From the IMG/VR virus record IMGVR_UViG_3300043409_000209, positions 1-30,151 of that record: DNA of 30,151 nt. One strand, written 5' to 3'. Position 1 is the stretch's first letter. Each line of letters starts with the position of its first letter. Positions 5,235 through 23,832 of the stretch are shown here, piece after piece. The stretch is from a virus. Both the position numbers and the translations under genes were made by a program. The notes beneath the pieces are model-generated. The model saw nothing but the letters and a program-made list of their open reading frames with translations. It searched no databases and was not told the origin of the DNA.

Positions 5235-6848
5235 ATGGCAACTATGTTTCCTAATATTCCGACTCAGCAAGGCTACAGAGCGCCAGGGCCATACGATGAA
5301 GATTACCGCTCAATTGCTCGTCGTGAACAATTAGCTCAAATTTTGCAACAACAAGCGTTGCAACCAATTGAAGTTGGTGGATACCAAGGTATTCAAGCGC
5401 CTATTTCTCCGTTATCTGGTATCGCTAAAGTTTTGCAAGGTTATTTTGCAGGGCAGCAAATGGATAGCGCAGATCAAGCTCGGCAAGACTTGGCGCTTAA
5501 AGCTGGCAATCAAGAACTTGCATTAAGCAATTTGCCGCCAATGGCAGCGCCACAAAAGTTAGCTAAAGTATTAGAGCAACAACCAATTGCAAATACTAAT
5601 TACGGCGAAGGTATGCCACCGCCGGCACAACCGGCAGAGCCTGTTGCACAAGCCATGCCCATCAGTATGCCTAGTATGGCTCAAGCGCCTATTCAAGCAG
5701 GGCAGCAAGTTGCACCACAAGCAGGGCAAATGCCTATGTTAAATAGCGACCCACGCATTAACGCAATGCTAGTGCGAAACATGGGTCAACAAGAATATTT
5801 AAAAGCGTTGGTTAAACAACTTGAGCCAACGTCTGAAATGAAAAATATTGCAGCCGTTTACGGTAGAGATAGTCCTGAATTTAAAAACGCAATGATGAAC
5901 GTTGCGGCAAAGTCTGGTTATATTGCGTCAGAAAATTTAGCACCTGGCGCAATTGCATTGAATCCAATAACCAAACAATTTGTGGCAAGCGCACCAAAAG
6001 AAGGGGTTCAAGCCTACCCTATTGGCAATGGTCAATTTGGCGCAATGGAACAGCCTGGTTACAGAAGCGCTGCTGCAAATATCGCTGGTGAAGAAGCCTT
6101 GCAAAAAGGTTTGGCAACAATGGCAACAACGCCACAAGCAACTTTAAATGAACAAGGGCAACAAGTTACGGGTGGCACTCAGTTTAGTAATATTTACGGC
6201 ACACCTACACCAACCTTTTCAGGTACTCAGCCTGCCCCAGCAAATGTTACGCCTAAAGTTTTAGCGCCTAGTCCTGTTATGCAAGCCGCTGACATTGGCT
6301 TAAATGAAGATTGGCGTAAAAACGTGGCAGCACCAGTTTTCTTGCAAGGTCAAACAGCACAAAAAACGCTTGATAGCGTGGCTGTATTGCGAAACACCGA
6401 TCTGCAAACTGGGTTTGGTGCAGAAACCAAAGCTAATATTGCCAATATGCTTGCCGCTGCTGGTGTAAAAGACGCTGAAAAGTTTGCAACAAATGCTCAA
6501 ATCTTTCAAAAAGAAGGATCAAAAGCGTTGCTCGATCGTTTGGCATCACAGAAAGGGCCGCAAACAGAACGTGACGCTCTCACAGGTCGTGAAACGTTTG
6601 TTACGCTTTCAGATACACCACAAGCTAAAGACTTTACGCTTGATCTTGCACAAGCTATGGCATTACAAGATCAACGCAAATCAGGGTATTTCCAAAAAGC
6701 GTCAAATATGCCTGAAGTCCACAAAGGCAAACTTGGATCAATCAGCACCGAATGGTCAAAAATTGAAGGTTCAATATTTGATATGCCGATTGGTAGATCA
6801 GCTGATGGCAAACCTATTACGATGCGTCAAAAGTACGGGATTAAATAA
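5235..6848 (+). CDS. probable internal virion (ejection) protein
   Basis: 537 residues, Ala/Gln/Pro-rich, helical, with no cysteine-rich or catalytic motif visible. The N-terminus contains YDEDYRSIARREQLAQIL and SPLSGIAKVLQGYFAGQQ; this composition is typical of proteins stored inside the capsid and ejected with DNA (P22 gp7/gp20/gp16-like in role). A Pro-rich segment lies at about 130-165. It is placed between the Q-rich protein and the large lytic-domain virion protein, with a one-base stop/start overlap (TAATG) into the latter. Role assigned by composition and position only. Confidence 0.6.
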   Translation: MATMFPNIPTQQGYRAPGPYDEDYRSIARREQLAQILQQQALQPIEVGGYQGIQAPISPLSGIAKVLQGYFAGQQMDSADQARQDLALKAGNQELALSNLPPMAAPQKLAKVLEQQPIANTNYGEGMPPPAQPAEPVAQAMPISMPSMAQAPIQAGQQVAPQAGQMPMLNSDPRINAMLVRNMGQQEYLKALVKQLEPTSEMKNIAAVYGRDSPEFKNAMMNVAAKSGYIASENLAPGAIALNPITKQFVASAPKEGVQAYPIGNGQFGAMEQPGYRSAAANIAGEEALQKGLATMATTPQATLNEQGQQVTGGTQFSNIYGTPTPTFSGTQPAPANVTPKVLAPSPVMQAADIGLNEDWRKNVAAPVFLQGQTAQKTLDSVAVLRNTDLQTGFGAETKANIANMLAAAGVKDAEKFATNAQIFQKEGSKALLDRLASQKGPQTERDALTGRETFVTLSDTPQAKDFTLDLAQAMALQDQRKSGYFQKASNMPEVHKGKLGSISTEWSKIEGSIFDMPIGRSADGKPITMRQKYGIK

Positions 6849-9613
6849 TGGCTAACCCAGAAGATTTTGCCTCGCAATATGCACCTTTGGCAACAAAGGT
6901 TGGCGATCAATTGGGCGTTAGTCCTGATCTTCTGTTAAGTCAATGGGGATTGGAAACAGGCTGGGGTAAATCAGTAATCCCTGGCACAAACAATCTTGGC
7001 AACATTATGGATTTCTCTGGTGGCGGTGTAGCTGCTGTTGATAACTACACAGGCCGCACCGACAAATATCGAGCGTTTGAAACTCCAGAGGCGTTCGGTG
7101 AGCATTTTGTTGATTTAATTAGACGCAGATACCCAAGCGTTGTTGGTTCAGGAAGTGATCCAGTTAAGTTTGCAACTGCCTTAAAACAAGGTGGTTATGC
7201 AGAACATCCTGAATATGTTAATTCTCTTGTTGATACGGCGCAAAGTTTTAGAAACCGTCCAAAAGCTATGGGGTTTTTAGCCGGCGCTACAAATTCAGAT
7301 GCGAACCCACCTACTATGAGCAATAATCCTTTTGCGTCATTAAACGAAGAATTTAGACTTGGTGTGCCTGAACCTACGCAACAAGCAAATCCGTTTGATA
7401 CTTTAAACACAGAATTTGCTTTACCAAAATCTGAGCCGTATGTTGCACCGCCAGCTCCAACACCACAAACATCGTCGGTAATGGGCAATATACAAGCCAT
7501 TCCAAGAATGTTGGGGTTGACAGGTCGAGCAGCAATTGAAGGCGTTGGTTCTGCGTTGTCAGCGCCAACAGAACCTTGGCGTATGGCAATAGAAGCGGCA
7601 AGCACCGCAGCGGGTGGGCCAAGGGTTGCGTCTGCTGAAACAATGGCGGGGAAACTTGCTAACTTATTGCAATTGCCAAAACCTATTGAAAAGTCTGTAA
7701 TGGATCGTACAGGTCAAGCAGAAAGATTTGGTTTTGACGTTGCAAAAACAGGATTTAGCGCCATCCCAATGATGGGCGGGGCTAAATTGTTAGCGCCATA
7801 TACGGGTGGCAATGCACAAACAATTTTGCAACAACTGGCTGCAAACCCAGCAATGCAAGGAATTTCCGCAGCAGGCGCTGGCGCTGGCGGTAGTGTTGCA
7901 AGGGAATATGGCTCACCACCTGAAGTGGAATTGCTTGCAAGTATTCTTGGCGGTGTTGCCGCACCAATTGCTGCTGCGCCCATTCAAAGCGGCGTAAGAT
8001 CAGCAGTTACCGCAGCGGGAAGTAAAGTTGCACCAACACGTTTTGGTGTGCAACCAGAACAAATTGATGAATTAATTACCTCGTCACTTGGTCGGTCAGG
8101 TTTTGATTTTTCAAAAGTTCCAGATCAAATAAAAACAGCATTACGCAATGACGTTGGCAATGCTTTGCGTACTGGTGGTAAATTTGATGAAGATGCAATG
8201 CGTAGATTGTTTGATATTCGGATGATTGAAGGCGCTACGCCAACAAAAGGCATGATTACGCTTGATCCTCGCCAAGTTACGCTTGAACAAAATCTTGCAA
8301 AAACAGGCATTAATTCAACAAATACAGATTTGCAACAATTAGCGCAAATTCAAAACACCAACAATCAAGCTCTTATTAACGCATTAAATCAACGTGGCGC
8401 AGGCAAAACAGATTTATTTGCAGCAGGCCAAGCAAATATTGGCAATATTTCTGCGGCTGACGCTGCAAGACAAGCGGCTACAAGTAGTTTGTACAAACAA
8501 GCAGAAGGAATGCCAGGCGGTCAACTACCATTAAACCGCAACGAATTAGTTCAAAATATTGATGCGGCGTTAGTTAAAGCAAATAAAAACGCATTTTTGC
8601 CTGCTGAAGTACGAACAATGATTAATAGCATTTCTAAAGGCGAAACAACAATTGAAGGCGTAAAGTATCCAGTCCCATTTGATGTAAACGCATTAGACAA
8701 TTTAATGACTACAATTGCAACGGCGCAACGATCTACAAACGATGGCAACATCAAGGCAGCGTTGAAAGTTGTTAGAGATGCCATTGACCAAACAGAAATT
8801 AAACCAATTAAAACTGAATTTGGCGGCGGTCAAGTTGTTACTGAGGCTGGTGCTGCGTATTTGACAGGAAAAGATGCTCAACCCAAAGAATTGTTAGATG
8901 CTTTAAATAAAGCACGGGCATCACATCGTGAACGCATGACATGGCAAGAATCATCAGCGCCAGTTGAGGCCGCAGTAAGCGGTATGCAACCTGATAATTT
9001 TGTTAAACGATTTGTTTTAAGCGGTACTTTAGATGATGCCGCTGCTATTGCTAAATCAGGCGATCCTGTTGCTACTAAAAACGCTATTTTGACCCATTTA
9101 AAATCTAAGGCTTTAGGTGGTCAATCGGATGAAATTGGTTCTTTTGGCGCTAAAAGTTTTAATTCTGCGTTAGATAACATTGGCGACAGAAAATTAGCTT
9201 TGTTCTTTACCCCTGAAGAAATTGGCGAATTAAAGCGTTTGGGTCGTGTGGCAAGTTACATGACAACGCAGCCCAAGGGTTCTGCTGTCAACAATAGTAA
9301 TAGCGGTGCTTTAGTGTTAGGTGCAGGAATAGATGCGTTGGGCGCTTTAGGTGGTTTGCCATTTGTTGGAACGGCTGTAGGGGCAACAGCTGCCGTGCCT
9401 CTTATAAAAGCAGGCGCTAAAAAAGTGTTTGGCAGTCAAATTAGTCAAATGGATCAAAAAGAAGCGTTAAATATGGCAAACGCTCTTGCGACTAGAGTGC
9501 CTGGCATGGAATTGGGTGAGAAAGTTACAACTGGTTTGCGTTATGGCAGTTTGTTGCAAAACCCTGATTTAATGCAACAATTAGGGCAACGATTCAAACA
9601 ATTAACTGAGTAA
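6848..9613 (+). CDS. large internal virion protein with N-terminal glucosaminidase-type lytic domain
   Basis: 921 residues. Residues 1-135 look like a FlgJ/glucosaminidase-type peptidoglycan hydrolase: an N-terminal helix pair, then QWGLETGWGKS, where Glu36 is the likely catalytic acid, and NNLGNIM, followed by YRAFETPEAFGEHFVDLI. Residues about 160-190 hold two copies of a short NPFxxLNxEF motif. The long remainder is Ala/Gly-rich and helical with hydrophobic stretches, for example near 310-385 and again near the C-terminus (VLGAGIDALGALGGLPFVGTA). This pattern fits an ejected protein that locally opens the cell wall and may line a channel during DNA entry. It is separate from the lysis endolysin at 13128. 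Confidence 0.8.
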   Translation: MANPEDFASQYAPLATKVGDQLGVSPDLLLSQWGLETGWGKSVIPGTNNLGNIMDFSGGGVAAVDNYTGRTDKYRAFETPEAFGEHFVDLIRRRYPSVVGSGSDPVKFATALKQGGYAEHPEYVNSLVDTAQSFRNRPKAMGFLAGATNSDANPPTMSNNPFASLNEEFRLGVPEPTQQANPFDTLNTEFALPKSEPYVAPPAPTPQTSSVMGNIQAIPRMLGLTGRAAIEGVGSALSAPTEPWRMAIEAASTAAGGPRVASAETMAGKLANLLQLPKPIEKSVMDRTGQAERFGFDVAKTGFSAIPMMGGAKLLAPYTGGNAQTILQQLAANPAMQGISAAGAGAGGSVAREYGSPPEVELLASILGGVAAPIAAAPIQSGVRSAVTAAGSKVAPTRFGVQPEQIDELITSSLGRSGFDFSKVPDQIKTALRNDVGNALRTGGKFDEDAMRRLFDIRMIEGATPTKGMITLDPRQVTLEQNLAKTGINSTNTDLQQLAQIQNTNNQALINALNQRGAGKTDLFAAGQANIGNISAADAARQAATSSLYKQAEGMPGGQLPLNRNELVQNIDAALVKANKNAFLPAEVRTMINSISKGETTIEGVKYPVPFDVNALDNLMTTIATAQRSTNDGNIKAALKVVRDAIDQTEIKPIKTEFGGGQVVTEAGAAYLTGKDAQPKELLDALNKARASHRERMTWQESSAPVEAAVSGMQPDNFVKRFVLSGTLDDAAAIAKSGDPVATKNAILTHLKSKALGGQSDEIGSFGAKSFNSALDNIGDRKLALFFTPEEIGELKRLGRVASYMTTQPKGSAVNNSNSGALVLGAGIDALGALGGLPFVGTAVGATAAVPLIKAGAKKVFGSQISQMDQKEALNMANALATRVPGMELGEKVTTGLRYGSLLQNPDLMQQLGQRFKQLTE

Positions 9614-10568: not shown

Positions 10569-11401
10569 TGGCTCTAGGAAATCAAGGACAAATTGGAAAA
10601 GCCCGTGCGCCTACAAGCGGGATGCTACGGCTTTCTGCTATACAACAAGGGGTTGTTAGTTATCCTATCAATTATCTTGTTGTAGCGGGTGGCGGCGGAG
10701 GTCAACAAGGCGGCGGCGGCGCTGGCGGTTTGTTGACAAGTAGTTCGATTGCGGTGATTCCTGCAATTGCATATACGGTAACAATTGGCGCTGGCGGGTC
10801 TGGAACTGTTGGTTCTGGAACAAGCGGTAGTAATTCCGTTCTCGGTTCATTCGCAACATCTATTGGCGGTGGTCGTGGTGGTGCGCCAACATTGTATTCT
10901 GGCGCAACTGGCGGTTCTGGTGGTGGAGGGCCTGCTTACACTTATTCAGCGGGTTCTGGCACTGCGGGGCAAGGAAATAATGGTGGTTCAGGCGGTCAAA
11001 ATACTTTTGATGCTGGCGGTGGTGGTGGCGGGGCAGGCGCTGTTGGTGGTAATGGTGTTGCGGGTGCAAGTTCGTCAACAGGTGGCGCTGGCGGTGCGGG
11101 TACAGCAAGCAGCATAACGGGCAGCAGCGTTACATATGCGGGCGGTGGCGGTGGTTATGGCACAACGGGTGGCGCTGCTGGTTCTGGTGGCGGAGGTGCG
11201 GGTGCTAGTGGGTCTGGAGTTTCTGGCACTGCAAATACAGGCGGTGGTGGCGGTGGTGGCGGTGGCAATGGCGGTGGCGGCGGATCAGGTGTAGTCATTA
11301 TTTCCTACGCAGGCGCACAAAGAGGCACAGGCGGTACGGTTACTTTTAGCGGTGGAAATACTATTCATACATTTACAACTTCAGGGACGTTTACAGCATG
11401 A
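10568..11401 (+). CDS. glycine-rich fibre-tip / adhesin-like protein
   Basis: 277 residues. After a 35-residue N-terminus comes YLVVAGGGGG, then a body dominated by Gly runs separated by short Ser/Thr/Ala pieces, and a final non-glycine module GTVTFSGGNTIHTFTTSGTFTA. The YLVVAGGGGG opening and the xHTFTTSGTF ending are the usual brackets of glycine-rich domains in phage tail adhesins, where polyglycine-II helices present variable loops to the host receptor. That makes receptor recognition the likely role. The other long frames inside this GC-rich repeat tract are artefacts. The stop overlaps the next ATG (ATGA). Confidence 0.75.
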   Translation: MALGNQGQIGKARAPTSGMLRLSAIQQGVVSYPINYLVVAGGGGGQQGGGGAGGLLTSSSIAVIPAIAYTVTIGAGGSGTVGSGTSGSNSVLGSFATSIGGGRGGAPTLYSGATGGSGGGGPAYTYSAGSGTAGQGNNGGSGGQNTFDAGGGGGGAGAVGGNGVAGASSSTGGAGGAGTASSITGSSVTYAGGGGGYGTTGGAAGSGGGGAGASGSGVSGTANTGGGGGGGGGNGGGGGSGVVIISYAGAQRGTGGTVTFSGGNTIHTFTTSGTFTA

Positions 11402-11805
11402 GTTATTTTGCAAATGTGCCAACATTAATAAATGGCAAAGGCATTGTTAATAATGTTATTGCTGCTGAACAAAATTTTATTAACTCAGGTGTTGAAGGTG
11501 ATCCAAGTTTGTGGTGGCAAACTTCATACAACACGCATGGAAACGTCCATTATGGTCAAGACGGTCAACCAGATGGCGGCGTAGCGTTAAGAGCAAACTA
11601 TGCGGGTATTGGTTATACCCTAGACACAACTGTTGTCCAAGATGGTGTCATTGGTGTTTTTTATGCGCCACAACCTTATCCGTCATGGATTCTTAGCACC
11701 CAAACGTATTTGTGGAATGCACCTGTTCCATATCCTACAGACGGACAAAATTACGTTTGGGATGAAACTACAGAATCGTGGGTGCTTGTACCAACTGGGG
11801 CGTAA
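11398..11805 (+). CDS. small phage appendage-associated protein
   Basis: 135 residues. It begins MSYFANV, has an N-terminal part with NVIAAEQNFIN, and ends with a Pro/Tyr/Trp-rich region (YPTDGQNYVWDETTESWV). Proteins with this head and tail are known as hypothetical genes beside fibre genes in several aquatic phages; function unknown. It overlaps the glycine-rich adhesin by four bases, which points to coupled expression and perhaps to an assembly role for that adhesin. Confidence 0.65.
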   Translation: MSYFANVPTLINGKGIVNNVIAAEQNFINSGVEGDPSLWWQTSYNTHGNVHYGQDGQPDGGVALRANYAGIGYTLDTTVVQDGVIGVFYAPQPYPSWILSTQTYLWNAPVPYPTDGQNYVWDETTESWVLVPTGA

Positions 11806-11807
11806 TA

Positions 11808-12062
11808 ATGGATTGGCAAAATCTCATCAATATAGGTGCTGGCGCTGGTTTAGGCGTTGTGGGTTGGTTTGCTCGCCAATTATGGGATTCTGTTAAAGAA
11901 TTGAAATCGGACATTGCAGACTTAAAACTTCATGTGAGCGATGCCTACGTCAAAAAGTCAGAAATGGATACGCTTAAATCCGAAATGGATAAGCGTTTTG
12001 ATCGTGTTGAAATGTTGCTTGATCGACTTTTTGACAAATTAGAATCAAAAGTGGACAAATGA
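11808..12062 (+). CDS. small membrane protein with cytoplasmic or periplasmic coiled coil
   Basis: 84 residues from the ATG at 11808, which has a GGGG ribosome-binding site at about 11797-11800, seven bases upstream; a longer in-frame start at 11778 would overlap the previous gene. Residues about 5-22 (LINIGAGAGLGVVGWFARQLW) are one membrane segment. Residues 26-82 are a continuous charged coiled coil with repeated SEMDxLKSEMDKRFDR heptads. Its place at the head of the lysis genes suggests a holin partner or antiholin, but no family is recognised. The stop overlaps the next start (ATGA). Confidence 0.7.
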   Translation: MDWQNLINIGAGAGLGVVGWFARQLWDSVKELKSDIADLKLHVSDAYVKKSEMDTLKSEMDKRFDRVEMLLDRLFDKLESKVDK

Positions 12063-12664
12063 GCGAAACCAAAGACACCGTAACAAGTGTTTTGCAGTAT
12101 GTGGACAGCCCATTTAAGCTGTTTGTTGTACTACTGTTAGGTGTCTTTGGTTATGTAGGCTATTTCGTGTACGACAATAAAAACTTTCTATTTAACGTTT
12201 ACGAAAAGTCCAACGCATTACCGAAGATTCAAGCAGCAAGATTTGACCACGCCATTGAGTTGCTAATGAAAGACCCCAACGTGGTGGTCGTGGCACTTAT
12301 GTCGGTTGACCCCATCTTTAATAAACGGGTAATGCTTAGAGTTGAAAGCCGTGATGGTAAACGTGCCAAGCACCTTGAAGGTGTAAACGTGGGCTTGTTT
12401 ACCTCTAGCAGCAGCAACAACTCTGATGTGGTTGAACTCATGGCTGGCAACGTGCCGTGTGGGTTTTATTCCGTACCCCAGTCTGAGGCCGGTGTCTATT
12501 ACCTTGAACAAGGCGCAACGTTTGGGTGTCGCACATCTGTGCCACCTGACTACACTAGTTTTATCGGGCAAATCACGGTCATGTACAAAGATGCACCACT
12601 TGACCTAGACAGGGCGAAAGCCATCCTTGTAATCGCAGCACGAATGTTATCGGAACAAAAATGA
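12059..12664 (+). CDS. single-pass membrane protein of unknown function, lysis region
   Basis: 201 residues. A polar N-terminus of about 20 residues is followed by one strong membrane segment (residues about 20-39, LFVVLLLGVFGYVGYFVY) and a 160-residue soluble domain with mixed strands and helices. That domain has two cysteines (VPCGFYS and FGCRTS) that could form a disulfide if it lies in the periplasm. It overlaps its neighbours by four bases on both sides, within a row of membrane proteins before the endolysin. A lysis or envelope role (spanin-like or superinfection-related) is possible, but the sequence does not match a spanin I know. Confidence 0.7.
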   Translation: MSETKDTVTSVLQYVDSPFKLFVVLLLGVFGYVGYFVYDNKNFLFNVYEKSNALPKIQAARFDHAIELLMKDPNVVVVALMSVDPIFNKRVMLRVESRDGKRAKHLEGVNVGLFTSSSSNNSDVVELMAGNVPCGFYSVPQSEAGVYYLEQGATFGCRTSVPPDYTSFIGQITVMYKDAPLDLDRAKAILVIAARMLSEQK

Positions 12665-12723
12665 ACTGGATCAAACAAAAGTGGGCGCAGTTTGTGGCTT
12701 GGTTTAAAGGTTTAAGGGGCTGA
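12661..12723 (+). CDS. 20-residue amphipathic cationic micropeptide
   Basis: A short ORF starts at an ATGA overlap with the previous stop and ends with TGA at 12721-12723, one base before the holin ATG. The peptide begins MNWIKQKWAQF and ends FKGLRG. Ile4, Trp8, Phe11, Phe15 and Leu18 fall on one helical face while Lys and Gln lie on the other; net charge is positive. It also carries AAGGGG, the ribosome-binding site of the holin gene, near its 3' end. It may be a real membrane-active peptide, or simply a coupling ORF that brings ribosomes to the holin start. Confidence 0.45.
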   Translation: MNWIKQKWAQFVAWFKGLRG

Positions 12724-12724
12724 T

Positions 12725-13138
12725 ATGTTTCCAATTATGGATATTCTTGGCATTGGCATGAAGGTCTTGGATAAGTTTTTCCCTGACCCAGAGCAAAAAG
12801 CCAAAGCGCAATTAGAACTAATGCAGATGCAACAGAATGGCGAACTAGCCAAAATGCAAGCAGATATGCAAGAGCAAGGCGAGCTTACCAAGCGCCAAGA
12901 AAACGACATGAGGTCTGACTCTTGGTTAAGCAAAAACATTCGCCCTATGACCCTTATAGCCATTCTAAGCGGGTACTTTACGTTTGCAATGATGAGTGCC
13001 TTTGATATTGAAACCAACAAGGCATACGTCGAGCTATTGGGGCAATGGGGTATGCTAATTATGAGTTTTTATTTTGGCGGCAGAACGCTTGAAAAGATTA
13101 TCGACATGAAATCAAAAGGAAAAGACGATGTTAAGTAA
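12725..13138 (+). CDS. probable holin (3TM / gene-transfer-agent holin type)
   Basis: 137 residues. The N-terminus holds a hydrophobic stretch (MDILGIGMKVLDKF) and then a long Gln/Glu/Lys amphipathic helix (residues about 22-63). Two clear membrane segments follow: residues about 73-93 (MTLIAILSGYFTFAMMSAF) and 103-119 (ELLGQWGMLIMSFYFGG). The SKNIRPMT before the first segment and FYFGGRTLEKI after the second match the 3TM holin family first described in gene transfer agents. It would make the membrane lesion that releases the endolysin. AAGGGG precedes the ATG, and the end overlaps the endolysin start by 11 bases. Confidence 0.8.
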   Translation: MFPIMDILGIGMKVLDKFFPDPEQKAKAQLELMQMQQNGELAKMQADMQEQGELTKRQENDMRSDSWLSKNIRPMTLIAILSGYFTFAMMSAFDIETNKAYVELLGQWGMLIMSFYFGGRTLEKIIDMKSKGKDDVK

Positions 13139-13640
13139 TTGGGACAATTCTTTTAAATTGATGCTGAAGTCGGAAGGCGGGTTTGTAAACCATCCAAGCG
13201 ATCCAGGCGGTATGACTAACCTTGGCGTTACAAAGGCAACATGGGAAAACTGGGTAGGCCGTGAGTCAGACGAGGCTGAAATGCGTGGGCTGACACCGGA
13301 AAAAGTTGAGCCTTTGTACAAAAAGAAGTATTTCGACGCTGTGCGTGGCGATGAGTTGCCAATGGGTCTTGATTACCTGATGTTTGATTTTGCCGTTAAT
13401 GCCGGCGCAGGCAGAGCGATCAAGACGCTGCAAACCGCTGTGGGTGTAACGCCAGACGGTGGGTTTGGCCCGATGACAATGGCAGCTGTGCAGGCTGTTG
13501 ACCCTGTTGATCTAATTGAGCGATTTAGCCAAGCCAAAGAGGACTTCTATCGGTCTTTGACTACCTTTGCAACGTTTGGCAAAGGGTGGCTGAATCGAGT
13601 TGCTGACGTTAAGGTAAAGGCTTCGTCGATGTTGGCTTAA
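13128..13640 (+). CDS. GH108 family endolysin (N-acetylmuramidase type)
   Basis: 170 residues, the normal length for the family. The catalytic motif SEGGFVNHPSDPGG at residues 15-28 has Glu16 as the expected catalytic acid; TNLGVTKATW follows, and the second half (DFAVNAGAGRAIKTLQTAVGV, then DGGFGPMT) matches the peptidoglycan-binding domain that usually ends GH108 lysozymes. No signal peptide or membrane anchor is visible, so it should need the upstream holin to leave the cytoplasm. It ends the + strand lysis region; its last 32 bases overlap the 3' end of a - strand gene. Confidence 0.9.
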   Translation: MLSNWDNSFKLMLKSEGGFVNHPSDPGGMTNLGVTKATWENWVGRESDEAEMRGLTPEKVEPLYKKKYFDAVRGDELPMGLDYLMFDFAVNAGAGRAIKTLQTAVGVTPDGGFGPMTMAAVQAVDPVDLIERFSQAKEDFYRSLTTFATFGKGWLNRVADVKVKASSMLA

Positions 13641-13818
13641 ATTGCCTGTCGCAGTACACGCAAAGCCCGTCACGCAACGTTGTACAAACCTGACCGCAAC
13701 CATCACAAACAAACTCTTTGGGGTACTTGGTACAACGTGACCAACGATACCAAACGAGTGTGCCAACCGTTGCGGCAGCGGCAGCATAAAACACAAACAT
13801 CCAGTCCCATAGCGTCAT
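13609..13818 (-). CDS. small membrane protein with zinc-ribbon-like cysteines
   Basis: 69 residues from the ATG at 13818 (a GTG one codon earlier is possible); GGGAGG lies six bases upstream. Residues about 5-24 (WMFVFYAAAAATVGTLVWY) form one membrane segment. The rest carries the arrangement C-x(8)-CDGCGQVC-x(7)-CVYC, which looks like a small zinc ribbon or rubredoxin-like knuckle. The gene overlaps the upstream gene's stop (TGATG), and its last residues are encoded on the strand opposite the endolysin 3' end. Function unknown; the cysteine pattern argues that it is real. Confidence 0.6.
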   Translation of the reverse strand: MTLWDWMFVFYAAAAATVGTLVWYRWSRCTKYPKEFVCDGCGQVCTTLRDGLCVYCDRQFKPTSTKPLP

Positions 13819-14096
13819 CACCAGCCTCCCACACCCATAAGTACCACTTGTTCACGTTTGGCTCTCTCAGCGGCTATACGCATGGCTGGCGATAGCCTGT
13901 ATGCCGGTCTGTCAAACTTGTCAATCTTTTTGTCGATGTGAGTCAGGTATTTTTCAAGTAGCGCACGTTCGCCAGTTGGGGCAATACCGCCTAATTCGTG
14001 CGAACACATTGCAAGTGTTGCGGGTCGAGAGTCTGGTAACAAACCTTTATGGCGCAGTTTGTCAGCAGCGGCTAGGTATAAATTAGATAAAGTCAT
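13818..14096 (-). CDS. small hypothetical phage protein
   Basis: 92 residues when started at the ATG at 14096 (MTLSNLYLAAADKL); the frame stays open 13 codons further but this ATG overlaps the upstream gene by only 14 bases and gives a sensible N-terminus. It is basic and helical, with His/Asp/Lys-rich middle (THIDKKIDKFDRP) and the ending VVLMGVGGW. No domain is recognised. It is the fourth gene of the five-gene - strand cluster. Confidence 0.6.
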   Translation of the reverse strand: MTLSNLYLAAADKLRHKGLLPDSRPATLAMCSHELGGIAPTGERALLEKYLTHIDKKIDKFDRPAYRLSPAMRIAAERAKREQVVLMGVGGW

Positions 14097-14322
14097 TGTT
14101 GTCCCCAAGTAATTGCGTGGCACGATCAAGACCAACTTCTGTTTGAATCATTCGACGCAACCTGACAATTGTTTCAGCGTTTAGCAACATTCCCTCCATC
14201 AATGCTTTGTTAGATTCTTGCAACTGGCGTATCAGCTGCGCTGCCTCGGTCTGCTCTTGGTGCGTCATAAAAAACCCGTTCTCAAGGTTTCTCAGGATTT
14301 GTTTTGGGCTAAGTGGGTTCAT
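14083..14322 (-). CDS. small helical hypothetical protein
   Basis: 79 residues, nearly all helical, with a heptad-like middle (AAQLIRQLQESNKALMEGMLLNAETIVRLRRMIQ) that could form a coiled coil or dimer. The ATG overlaps the previous stop (ATGA on the - strand), and the 3' end overlaps the next gene by 14 bases. No known family is recognised. Position in the - strand cluster behind a winged-helix gene makes an early accessory role likely. Confidence 0.6.
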   Translation of the reverse strand: MNPLSPKQILRNLENGFFMTHQEQTEAAQLIRQLQESNKALMEGMLLNAETIVRLRRMIQTEVGLDRATQLLGDNNDFI

Positions 14323-14531
14323 TTGTGTGTCTTGTCCAATGCGTAGAGGGCTGTATACAGATGCGGATGCGTTGTATCGTTAAGTAGTACACCTTTGTCC
14401 CCAATGTATCCCGTGGGCTTTAATTTAGCTAAATTGTCAGCAGCCTGGCGAAAGGCACAAGGGTTGTACTCAGCGTTGCATCGACCACCGCAAGCCTCTT
14501 TAAACAGATGGATATAGTCGGCCTTGTTCAT
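14319..14531 (-). CDS. small hypothetical protein with paired cysteines
   Basis: 70 residues. The N-terminal half has three cysteines (ACGGRC and NPCAFRQAADNL); the second half is polar with ILNDTTHPHLYTAL-like composition. I know similar small proteins only as accessory phage genes. No ribosome-binding site is obvious, and the start overlaps the previous stop by four bases, so translation probably depends on coupling to the winged-helix gene upstream. Confidence 0.6.
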   Translation of the reverse strand: MNKADYIHLFKEACGGRCNAEYNPCAFRQAADNLAKLKPTGYIGDKGVLLNDTTHPHLYTALYALDKTHK

Positions 14532-19988: not shown

Positions 19989-20310
19989 TTACAGCCCACA
20001 TCCAGCGATTGAATACATTTGGGACAATGCGCCGGCATATGCCAAAGCAAAGGGCGAACTGGCGCAACTGGAGGCGTTCAAGTCAAGCCTAAAAGCCATT
20101 CTGATGAAAGAATCAGGCGAAACTAGCATTGGAGGCCAAGAGCGAGAGGCTTATGCTAACCCAAAGTATCAAACCCATTGTGATGCAATTGGGGCAGCAA
20201 CCGAGCAGGCCGAGTTGCTTAAATGGCGTATGACTAGCGCACAGATGCGATTTGATGCCTGGCGCACCGAGCAGGCCAGTAACCGACAAATTGAGAAAAT
20301 AACCAAATGA
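19981..20310 (+). CDS. small helical phage protein
   Basis: 109 residues from the ATG at 19981, which overlaps the previous stop by eight bases. Mostly helix: a first helix pair with AYAKAKGELAQLEAFKSSLKAILM, a short REAYANPKY segment and a long second helix (EQAELLKWRMTSAQMRFDAWRTEQAS). The helix-YANPxY-helix pattern occurs in several small phage replication-region proteins whose role is unknown. Overlaps the next start (ATGA). Confidence 0.65.
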   Translation: MSDYSPHPAIEYIWDNAPAYAKAKGELAQLEAFKSSLKAILMKESGETSIGGQEREAYANPKYQTHCDAIGAATEQAELLKWRMTSAQMRFDAWRTEQASNRQIEKITK

Positions 20311-22641: not shown

Positions 22642-23832
22642 ATGAAGATCGAACAAGTCGCAGTCACGGCGCTAATACCTTACGCTAAGAACAGCAGAAC
22701 GCACGATGACGCACAAGTTGCCCAAATAGCGGCAAGCATTAAAGAGTTTGGCTGGACTAACCCAATCCTAGTAGACGGGGAACGTGGCATCATTGCAGGC
22801 CACGGCAGGCTTATGGCGGCTCGAAAGCTAGGCATGACAGAAGTACCAGTCATTGAGCTCAAAGACCTGACACCTACGCAAAAGAAAGCCTACATCATTG
22901 CCGACAACCGATTAGCGTTGAACGCAGGGTGGGATGACCAGTTGTTAACCATTGAGCTCAACGAATTACTTGCAGATAAGTTTAGCTTAGACTTGCTAGG
23001 ATTTAACGCAGACGAGTTGAATGCGCTGCTAAACCCTGTTGAGATAAACGAGGGCTTGGTAGATGAGGATGAAGTACCTGAACCGCCACCAGAGCCAATC
23101 ACCAAGATGGGTGACATTTGGTTACTGGGCAACCACAGGCTTATGTGCGGGGATAGCACCCAAATAGATCAACTAGAAAAGCTATGCAACGGCAGGCCAG
23201 TAGATATGTGGCTGACCGATCCACCGTATAACGTGGCGTATGAGGGCAAAACCAAAGATGCTTTAACTATTAAAAACGATTCAATGTCTGATGACTCGTT
23301 TAGACAGTTTTTAAGAGATAGCTACGTTGCCGCTGATGTAGTGATGAAACAAGGCGCCGTATTTTACATATGGCATGCCGATAGTGAGGGGTACAACTTC
23401 CGAGGTGCGGCGCACGATACTGGTTGGAAAGTACGCCAATGTTTAATTTGGAAGAAGTCTACAATTGTGATGGGCCGACAAGACTACCATTGGAAACATG
23501 AACCCTGCTTATATGGTTGGAAGGAAGGGGCTGGACACCTTTGGGCTGCTGACCGCAAACAATCGACTATCTTAGAGTTTGATAAGCCCAGCAGAAACGG
23601 TGAACGCCCAACCATGAAACCCGTGGCGCTATTTGAATACCAAATGCTAAATAATACTAAGGGTGGTGATATTGTATTGGATAGTTTTGGTGGCTCAGGC
23701 ACAACTATGATAGCTGCTGAAAAAAATGGTCGGGTTGGCTATTTGATGGAGTTTGATCCTAAATACTGTGACGTAATCGTCAAGCGTTGGGAAAACTACA
23801 CCGGCAAGACCGCAGTTCTTTCGGAGTTATAA
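22642..23832 (+). CDS. ParB-like domain fused to a DNA N6-adenine/N4-cytosine methyltransferase
   Basis: 396 residues. Residues 1-95 are a ParB/Srx-type N-terminal domain (IPYAKNSRTH, then GERGIIAGHGRLMAARKLG). Residues about 155-390 are a methyltransferase with the catalytic DPPY motif at 193-196 ahead of the SAM-binding FGGSGTT motif at 349-355, the beta-class order. Such fusions are common in phages, usually without a partner restriction enzyme, and none is seen here. It would methylate phage DNA, protecting it from host nucleases or marking sites for packaging or expression. The ParB-like part may bind DNA or hydrolyse nucleotides. It lies just before the small terminase. Confidence 0.9.
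   Translation: MKIEQVAVTALIPYAKNSRTHDDAQVAQIAASIKEFGWTNPILVDGERGIIAGHGRLMAARKLGMTEVPVIELKDLTPTQKKAYIIADNRLALNAGWDDQLLTIELNELLADKFSLDLLGFNADELNALLNPVEINEGLVDEDEVPEPPPEPITKMGDIWLLGNHRLMCGDSTQIDQLEKLCNGRPVDMWLTDPPYNVAYEGKTKDALTIKNDSMSDDSFRQFLRDSYVAADVVMKQGAVFYIWHADSEGYNFRGAAHDTGWKVRQCLIWKKSTIVMGRQDYHWKHEPCLYGWKEGAGHLWAADRKQSTILEFDKPSRNGERPTMKPVALFEYQMLNNTKGGDIVLDSFGGSGTTMIAAEKNGRVGYLMEFDPKYCDVIVKRWENYTGKTAVLSEL

Follow-up and report, generated by a model that had tools for sequence, protein, structure and literature searches.

Does a 20-codon open reading frame (ORF) set directly against the start of a phage holin gene encode a peptide that contributes to lysis, or does it only hand ribosomes on to that start? 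We addressed this question for a virus record of 30,151 bases, taken in full and hereafter called the window. The preliminary description had reported a 20-aa ORF with a high content of Trp, Phe and Lys/Arg in a lysis region. We confirmed the ORF at its exact coordinates, together with its composition (Trp3, Trp8 and Trp14; Phe11 and Phe15; Lys5, Lys7, Lys16 and Arg19; net charge +4), and Pfam and PHROG searches support the setting, with a GTA_holin_3TM gene and then a GH108 endolysin gene lying downstream (Table 1). Tight overlaps had been described on both sides; the upstream one is real, the peptide start sharing 4 nt (ATGA) with the p201 stop, but on the holin side the peptide TGA is separated from the hol137 ATG by a 1-nt gap. 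The holin gene in turn overlaps the endolysin gene. Searches of Pfam and PHROG with the window peptide returned nothing at E 0.1, its short length limiting such searches; a 31-residue and a 27-residue relative gave chance matches alone against curated profiles (E 0.13 and 0.57, with E up to 1 allowed), and the 31-mer gave a single chance match in the PDB (E 2.2), where the short query is again limiting.

Table 1. Features of the lysis cassette in the window and the evidence for each.
Feature	Positions	Strand	Evidence
p84 (84 aa; coiled-coil-like by eye; upstream cassette member)	11808..12062	+	ORF; PHROG 7885/462 matches
p201 (201 aa; predicted membrane helix and GAF-like domain)	12059..12664	+	AF2, Foldseek, VIA-align
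GGA, weak Shine-Dalgarno-like element, 6 nt 5' of the peptide ATG	12652..12654	+	
Peptide MNWIKQKWAQFVAWFKGLRG, 20 aa	12661..12723	+	ORF, relatives
TAAGG, Shine-Dalgarno-like element for the holin, within peptide codons Leu18-Arg19	12713..12717	+	
Holin hol137, GTA_holin_3TM family	12725..13138	+	Pfam 3.4e-11; PHROG holin 1.2e-23
Endolysin, glycosyl hydrolase 108 (GH108) with PG_binding_3	13128..13640	+	Pfam 9.3e-28

Elsewhere in the window, positions 22642-23832 encode a protein in which a DNA methyltransferase is joined to an N-terminal part that is ParB-like (PHROG 498, 1.4e-172; ParB-like families). The 921-aa product of positions 6848-9613 begins with a glucosaminidase domain (Pfam 9.3e-17) and may be a second cell-wall enzyme.

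Relatives were collected by scanning viral_contigs with the holin, p201, the endolysin, one DNA pattern, p84 and two putative holins described below, hol65 and hol121; the holin, endolysin, p84 and hol121 scans each contributed their best 80 loci, and the scans together supplied loci L001-L080, L082-L206 and L231-L427. We took as family members ORFs with an ATGA start, a stop within -8 to +6 nt of a holin start and at least two Trp, such that the position of the family at holin starts and its Trp content are partly a product of construction; L062, L064 and L422 passed this filter and were removed by eye. In L062 and L064, a different, strongly hydrophobic peptide of 26-27 residues, with one transmembrane helix by eye, abuts the holin start. 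The family comprises 45 distinct peptides (52 distinct DNA sequences) of 20-31 residues at the starts of holins or putative holins, and their occurrence at the same place in relatives indicates that the window observation exceeds chance. All but one of the 45 carry the core [K/E]-W-x-x-[F/V/L/A], with Leu replacing Trp in the exception. A 20-member alignment has Trp8 in every sequence and Lys7 and Trp14 each in at least 90%, with identity to a 31-mer falling as low as 35%. Ribosome-binding sites retained beside a lost amino-acid pattern, the outcome that the preliminary description had named as speaking against a peptide, are not what we found; the amino-acid pattern is conserved among relatives. 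Two controls bear on the filter: with the Trp requirement removed there are 67 distinct bridging ORFs, 19 of them with one Trp or none and no family-like ORF among those 19, and listing whatever comes after p84 leads to the same family. A tblastn search of named phages with one 28-mer returned three records at E 4-5, which we took as chance, and a host look-up in genome_contigs returned eight loci, all metagenome-assembled or uncultured, including one (L223) with no peptide before the holin. The titles and abstract openings surveyed name no such peptide, which is not proof that it is unpublished.

The preliminary description had doubted that the frame is a mere coupling ORF and had proposed a comparison of synonymous and nonsynonymous change across relatives. 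Counting variant bases singly against the consensus of each length group, with kappa from 1 to 4 and relatedness not fully corrected, we found 16 synonymous and 12 nonsynonymous variants among 11 sequences encoding 23-mers (p 1e-5 to 6e-4), 12 and 10 among four encoding 20-mers (p 1e-4 to 2e-3), and 17 and 28 among 25 encoding 28-mers (p 0.005 to 0.048); the four 27-mer sequences showed no significant bias (6 and 12, p 0.10-0.27). Single-base counting makes some of the nonsynonymous variants artefacts, even stops, and so biases the test against a reading of selection. Rough estimates of omega are 0.2-0.3 for the 20- and 23-mers, 0.4-0.6 for the 28-mers and 0.45-0.66 for the 27-mers, and a Nei-Gojobori comparison of the 23 distinct 28-mers gives a pN/pS of 0.345. 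Because change is biased towards synonymous sites, the amino acids appear to matter in three of the four length groups, and this bias, together with the retained amino-acid core, bears out the earlier doubt. Judged by these patterns of substitution, the ORF is real and its product is selected as a peptide, such that a peptide-level function is likely and a mere coupling ORF unlikely.

On an ideal alpha-helix, Ile4, Trp8, Phe11, Phe15 and Leu18 of the window peptide fall inside an 80-degree arc, in line with the earlier assignment of these five residues to one helix face, but Lys7 lies inside the wider hydrophobic arc that runs from Trp3 to Val12. The resemblance to amphipathic, cationic antimicrobial peptides that had been suggested was not supported beyond composition. 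The hydrophobic moment of the window peptide is not above that of shuffles of its own residues (p 0.45 on the Eisenberg scale, 0.08 on Fauchere-Pliska and 0.12 on Wimley-White), and it exceeds shuffles (p < 0.05) in just 2, 2 and 1 of 15 representatives on the three scales. Net charge across the family runs from 0 to +7, and follows context, being mostly 0 or +1 before hol65 and +2 to +7 before hol137. Antimicrobial-like amphipathicity and charge do not, on these comparisons, appear to be family traits. The peptide is nonetheless predicted to be one alpha-helix; AF2 modelled a 31-mer as a single helix over residues 2-29 (pLDDT 81). Stronger but indirect signs of a helix come from internal repeats. 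One 28-mer and one 31-mer contain an 11-residue internal repeat (p 0.011 and 0.018 over lags 5-14), with a best 33-nt DNA identity of 61-70%, and the L288 peptide contains one of 7 residues (p 0.0008). Both repeat lengths preserve helix phase. The remaining length differences, whether terminal or separating the 23-, 27- and 31-residue types, do not correspond to 7- or 11-residue units, and the window peptide has no significant internal repeat. In the alignment it is without an 11-residue stretch found in 31-mers.

Family members precede hol137, hol65, hol79 and hol121, the latter three being putative holins by position and hydrophobic stretch only, with no holin match in Pfam, PHROG or NCBIfam. 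With E values up to 10 allowed, blastp detects no similarity of hol65 or hol79 to hol137; hol121 is weakly similar to it (E 0.1) and may be a distant relative. An identical 28-mer, MKAKWEAFKAWCNAKWVAVKAWFSNVRF, stands before hol137 in two loci, L163 and L179, and before hol65 in L172; in L325, hol65 has before it a 20-mer resembling that of the window. The peptide is absent from 29 of 59 hol137 clusters, and also from relatives such as L082, which has a 92% identical p201; in such phages it is thus dispensable. The best endolysin tree, built from 100 genes with each cassette cluster represented once, requires the peptide to change between present and absent at least 18 times, 12 of them on well-supported branches, a count that takes in gains, losses and exchanges together because the endolysin recombines. 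The picture that emerges from these comparisons is of an accessory, patchily distributed peptide. It is found in 29 of 33 clusters with p201 before the holin, in 5 of 17 with p201 after the holin and in 9 of 51 with no p201 detected, counts that are uncorrected for relatedness. This enrichment, taken with the context-dependent charge, hints at some dependence on partners.

The neighbouring p201 has no Pfam match. Its AF2 model (pLDDT 86) has a short N-terminal helix, a membrane-like helix at residues 18-39, a connecting helix and a GAF-like domain. The periplasmic domain of T4 holin T is matched by Foldseek with a best E of 1e-4, near the top of the solved chains, and aligns with a Z of 12.3 and an rmsd of 3.3 over 131 residues at 13% identity, which ties it with GAF domains. 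Cys134 and Cys157 are invariant in 11 p201 sequences. In predicted topology, and in how its C-terminal domain folds, modelled p201 is similar to T4 holin T, a class III holin marked by one TM helix and a GAF-like, disulfide-bearing periplasmic domain. The position of p201 varies among relatives: it may precede the holin, separate the holin from the endolysin or follow the i-spanin. Homologues of p84 lie directly 5' of annotated holins in Burkholderia phage KL1 and Pseudomonas phage UF_RH5.

We scored as a spanin any i-spanin homologue, or any ORF with a lipobox, lying between the holin and endolysin genes. The home-made pattern used for the lipobox finds, as a control, the o-spanins of hol65/hol79 relatives, in which an Rz-like i-spanin gene has an embedded gene for an Rz1-like lipoprotein. 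Across 101 clusters (232 cassettes), all 19 with hol65 or hol79 have a recognisable spanin, and none of the 82 with hol137 or hol121 has one (compare L095:2389-2802, L160:2595-3011 and relatives with window 12725-13640). Clusters with the peptide divide into 34 spanin-less and 9 spanin-bearing, and those without it into 48 and 10, which gives no association (Fisher p 0.80); L160 was counted as peptide-bearing by hand, its peptide gene having a larger overlap with the holin-like gene. A test of spanin against peptide on independent pairs had too few pairs (median p 0.625). A lipobox scan covering the window together with eight relatives, with the sequence split at 20,000, found no credible spanin in the window: the sole match beside lysis genes is a 30-codon ORF in the relative G004, out of frame within the endolysin gene, and the others are scattered. 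A looser pattern picks out a 65-codon ORF antisense to the window holin. Endolysins 98-99% identical to that of the window occur with spanins (L095), which suggests that the host is Gram-negative. In a GenBank phage, MW202520.1 (L428), positions 1668-2511 contain unannotated holin-like, i-spanin-like, embedded Rz1-like and 73-aa membrane-protein-like genes between p84 and lysozyme; no peptide was found in this cassette.

If the ORF served solely to ferry ribosomes from p201 or p84 to the holin start, its amino acids being irrelevant, the ATGA overlap upstream, a stop at or a few nt from the holin ATG and a Shine-Dalgarno-like element for the holin in the last codons would all be expected, and all are present. 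Arg in the last four residues is encoded by AGG in 36 of 38 cases, as compared with 0 of 17 elsewhere in the peptides. Because these codons also carry the element for the holin, the window peptide may owe its C-terminal Arg to the needs of holin translation. Of 52 distinct contexts, 49 have a Shine-Dalgarno-like match of at least 4 bases before the peptide start, a figure with no background control; the window has only GGA. The arrangement of p84/p201, peptide and holin fits termination-reinitiation. Nonetheless, irrelevance of the amino acids is at odds with synonymous-biased change and with the near-universal core. Moreover, the holin start in relatives without the peptide commonly overlaps the p84 or p201 stop directly, so that no bridge is needed, and folding at the window junction is poorer than in shuffles (z +1.5). 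We therefore regard a role confined to coupling as very unlikely. Several Trp codons in a short ORF before a holin, and a near-invariant Lys-Trp, could instead point to a leader that couples holin translation to cell state through nascent-chain arrest or Trp-codon attenuation. This is extremely unlikely, in our view: members differ in how far the conserved Trp stands from the stop, selection extends past the Trp codons, the window shows no hairpin, and Rfam has no match in window positions 11000-14500.

A regulator of the holin, as the preliminary description had also suggested, might take the form of a specific antiholin or chaperone of the GTA_holin_3TM protein. The peptide is produced immediately before this holin, the other downstream genes are just putative holins, and the sites at which antiholins can act include the inner membrane, the periplasm and the cytoplasm (PMC7182436). 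However, a single-holin partner is disfavoured because family members, including one identical peptide, also precede hol65, and the many hol137 clusters that do without the peptide count against it too; we consider the possibility decidedly improbable. The peptide could also be made late and merely share the lysis transcript, with a non-lysis role such as superinfection exclusion or an effect on a membrane protein of the host. Its accessory, patchy distribution is compatible with such a role, and phage small proteins can act via phage or host factors (PMC11323111), but a family-HMM search of loci to L230 found no convincing member away from a holin start, and we think this rather improbable. 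Lastly, the peptide might resemble a disruptin, leaving through the holin holes to attack the outer membrane and replacing spanins as the phiKT peptide does. The window peptide has a charge of +4, is Trp-rich and has no credible spanin beside it, and phiKT-type disruptins are short amphipathic helices (PMC12819732). Against this, the peptide is not simply the spanin substitute of the group, because the two show no association: it occurs independently of recognisable spanins, and replacement of spanins as the general role of the family is rejected on that ground. A strict link between charge and spanins was likewise dropped, with peptides of +5, +5 and +6 alongside spanins in L172 (the 28-mer shared with hol137 loci), L271 and L327, and a charge of 0 in spanin-less L255. 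A disruptin-like action is unlikely, though less so than the readings above.

We tentatively propose, at somewhat less than an even chance, that the peptide is an accessory helix at the membrane surface, from where it would tune the opening of holes or the timing of lysis. Its function is most likely lysis-linked and membrane-surface, and probably neither specific to one holin nor that of a general spanin stand-in; the membrane-acting lysis helper of the preliminary description is possible on this evidence. We envisage a micro-peptide gene of the lysis cassette whose product would be released into the cytosol, where its Trp, Phe and Lys residues would settle it against the inner membrane of the host, at the inner leaflet. 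Produced in parallel with the holin, the peptide would shift the threshold or the time at which holin assemblies open, possibly by thinning the membrane, by depolarising it or by joining the rim of the hole. Its target would be the membrane or a feature shared by hole-formers, not the sequence of one holin, and phages would gain and lose it as an accessory. T4 holin T has a cytosolic amphipathic helix that is essential for hole formation (PMC12162936), and ICP1 TeaA, a tested holin, belongs to the same Pfam family as the window holin (PMC7182436). The T4 helix, the likeness of p201 to T and the kinship with TeaA together suggest that a separate membrane-surface helix could act in this way. A more specific version, which we consider improbable, is that the peptide is a free-standing, interchangeable 'holin helix': a cytosolic amphipathic helix of the T4 holin T type, detached or separately evolved, 20-31 residues long, that would work in trans with several unrelated hole-formers and shift in length by helical units of 7 or 11 residues.

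These observations add a selected micro-peptide family to phage lysis cassettes, with genes short enough to escape annotation. The presence of the same peptide before different putative holins, with and without spanins, makes this family a natural setting in which to ask whether a small membrane helix can act as a general timer of lysis. The means by which the outer membrane is opened in phages that have no recognisable spanin is described as an open question (PMC12819732). The group studied here, with near-identical endolysins in spanin-bearing and spanin-less cassettes, is well suited to that question.

Several known systems invite comparison. The disruptin of Escherichia phage phiKT is reportedly the product of gene gp28, about 56 aa long, in an account attributed to Holt et al. 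2022. Like it, the window peptide is a short, predicted helical peptide of phage lysis, in a cassette likewise without a recognised spanin; however, family members are shorter, their charge is not conserved and they occur with and without spanins. Antiholins such as ArrA of ICP1 and RIII of T4 are also products of small holin-partner genes, whereas this peptide precedes several different putative holins and matches no family. Coupling or leader ORFs share the ATGA overlap and the Shine-Dalgarno-like element for the holin in the 3' end of the ORF, but differ from this family, in which purifying selection appears to act on the amino-acid core in all length groups except the 27-mers. The N-terminal helix of T4 holin T is a cytosolic helix tied to a hole-former, and the window peptide is encoded directly behind the T-like p201; unlike the T helix, the window peptide is free-standing, outside any holin chain.
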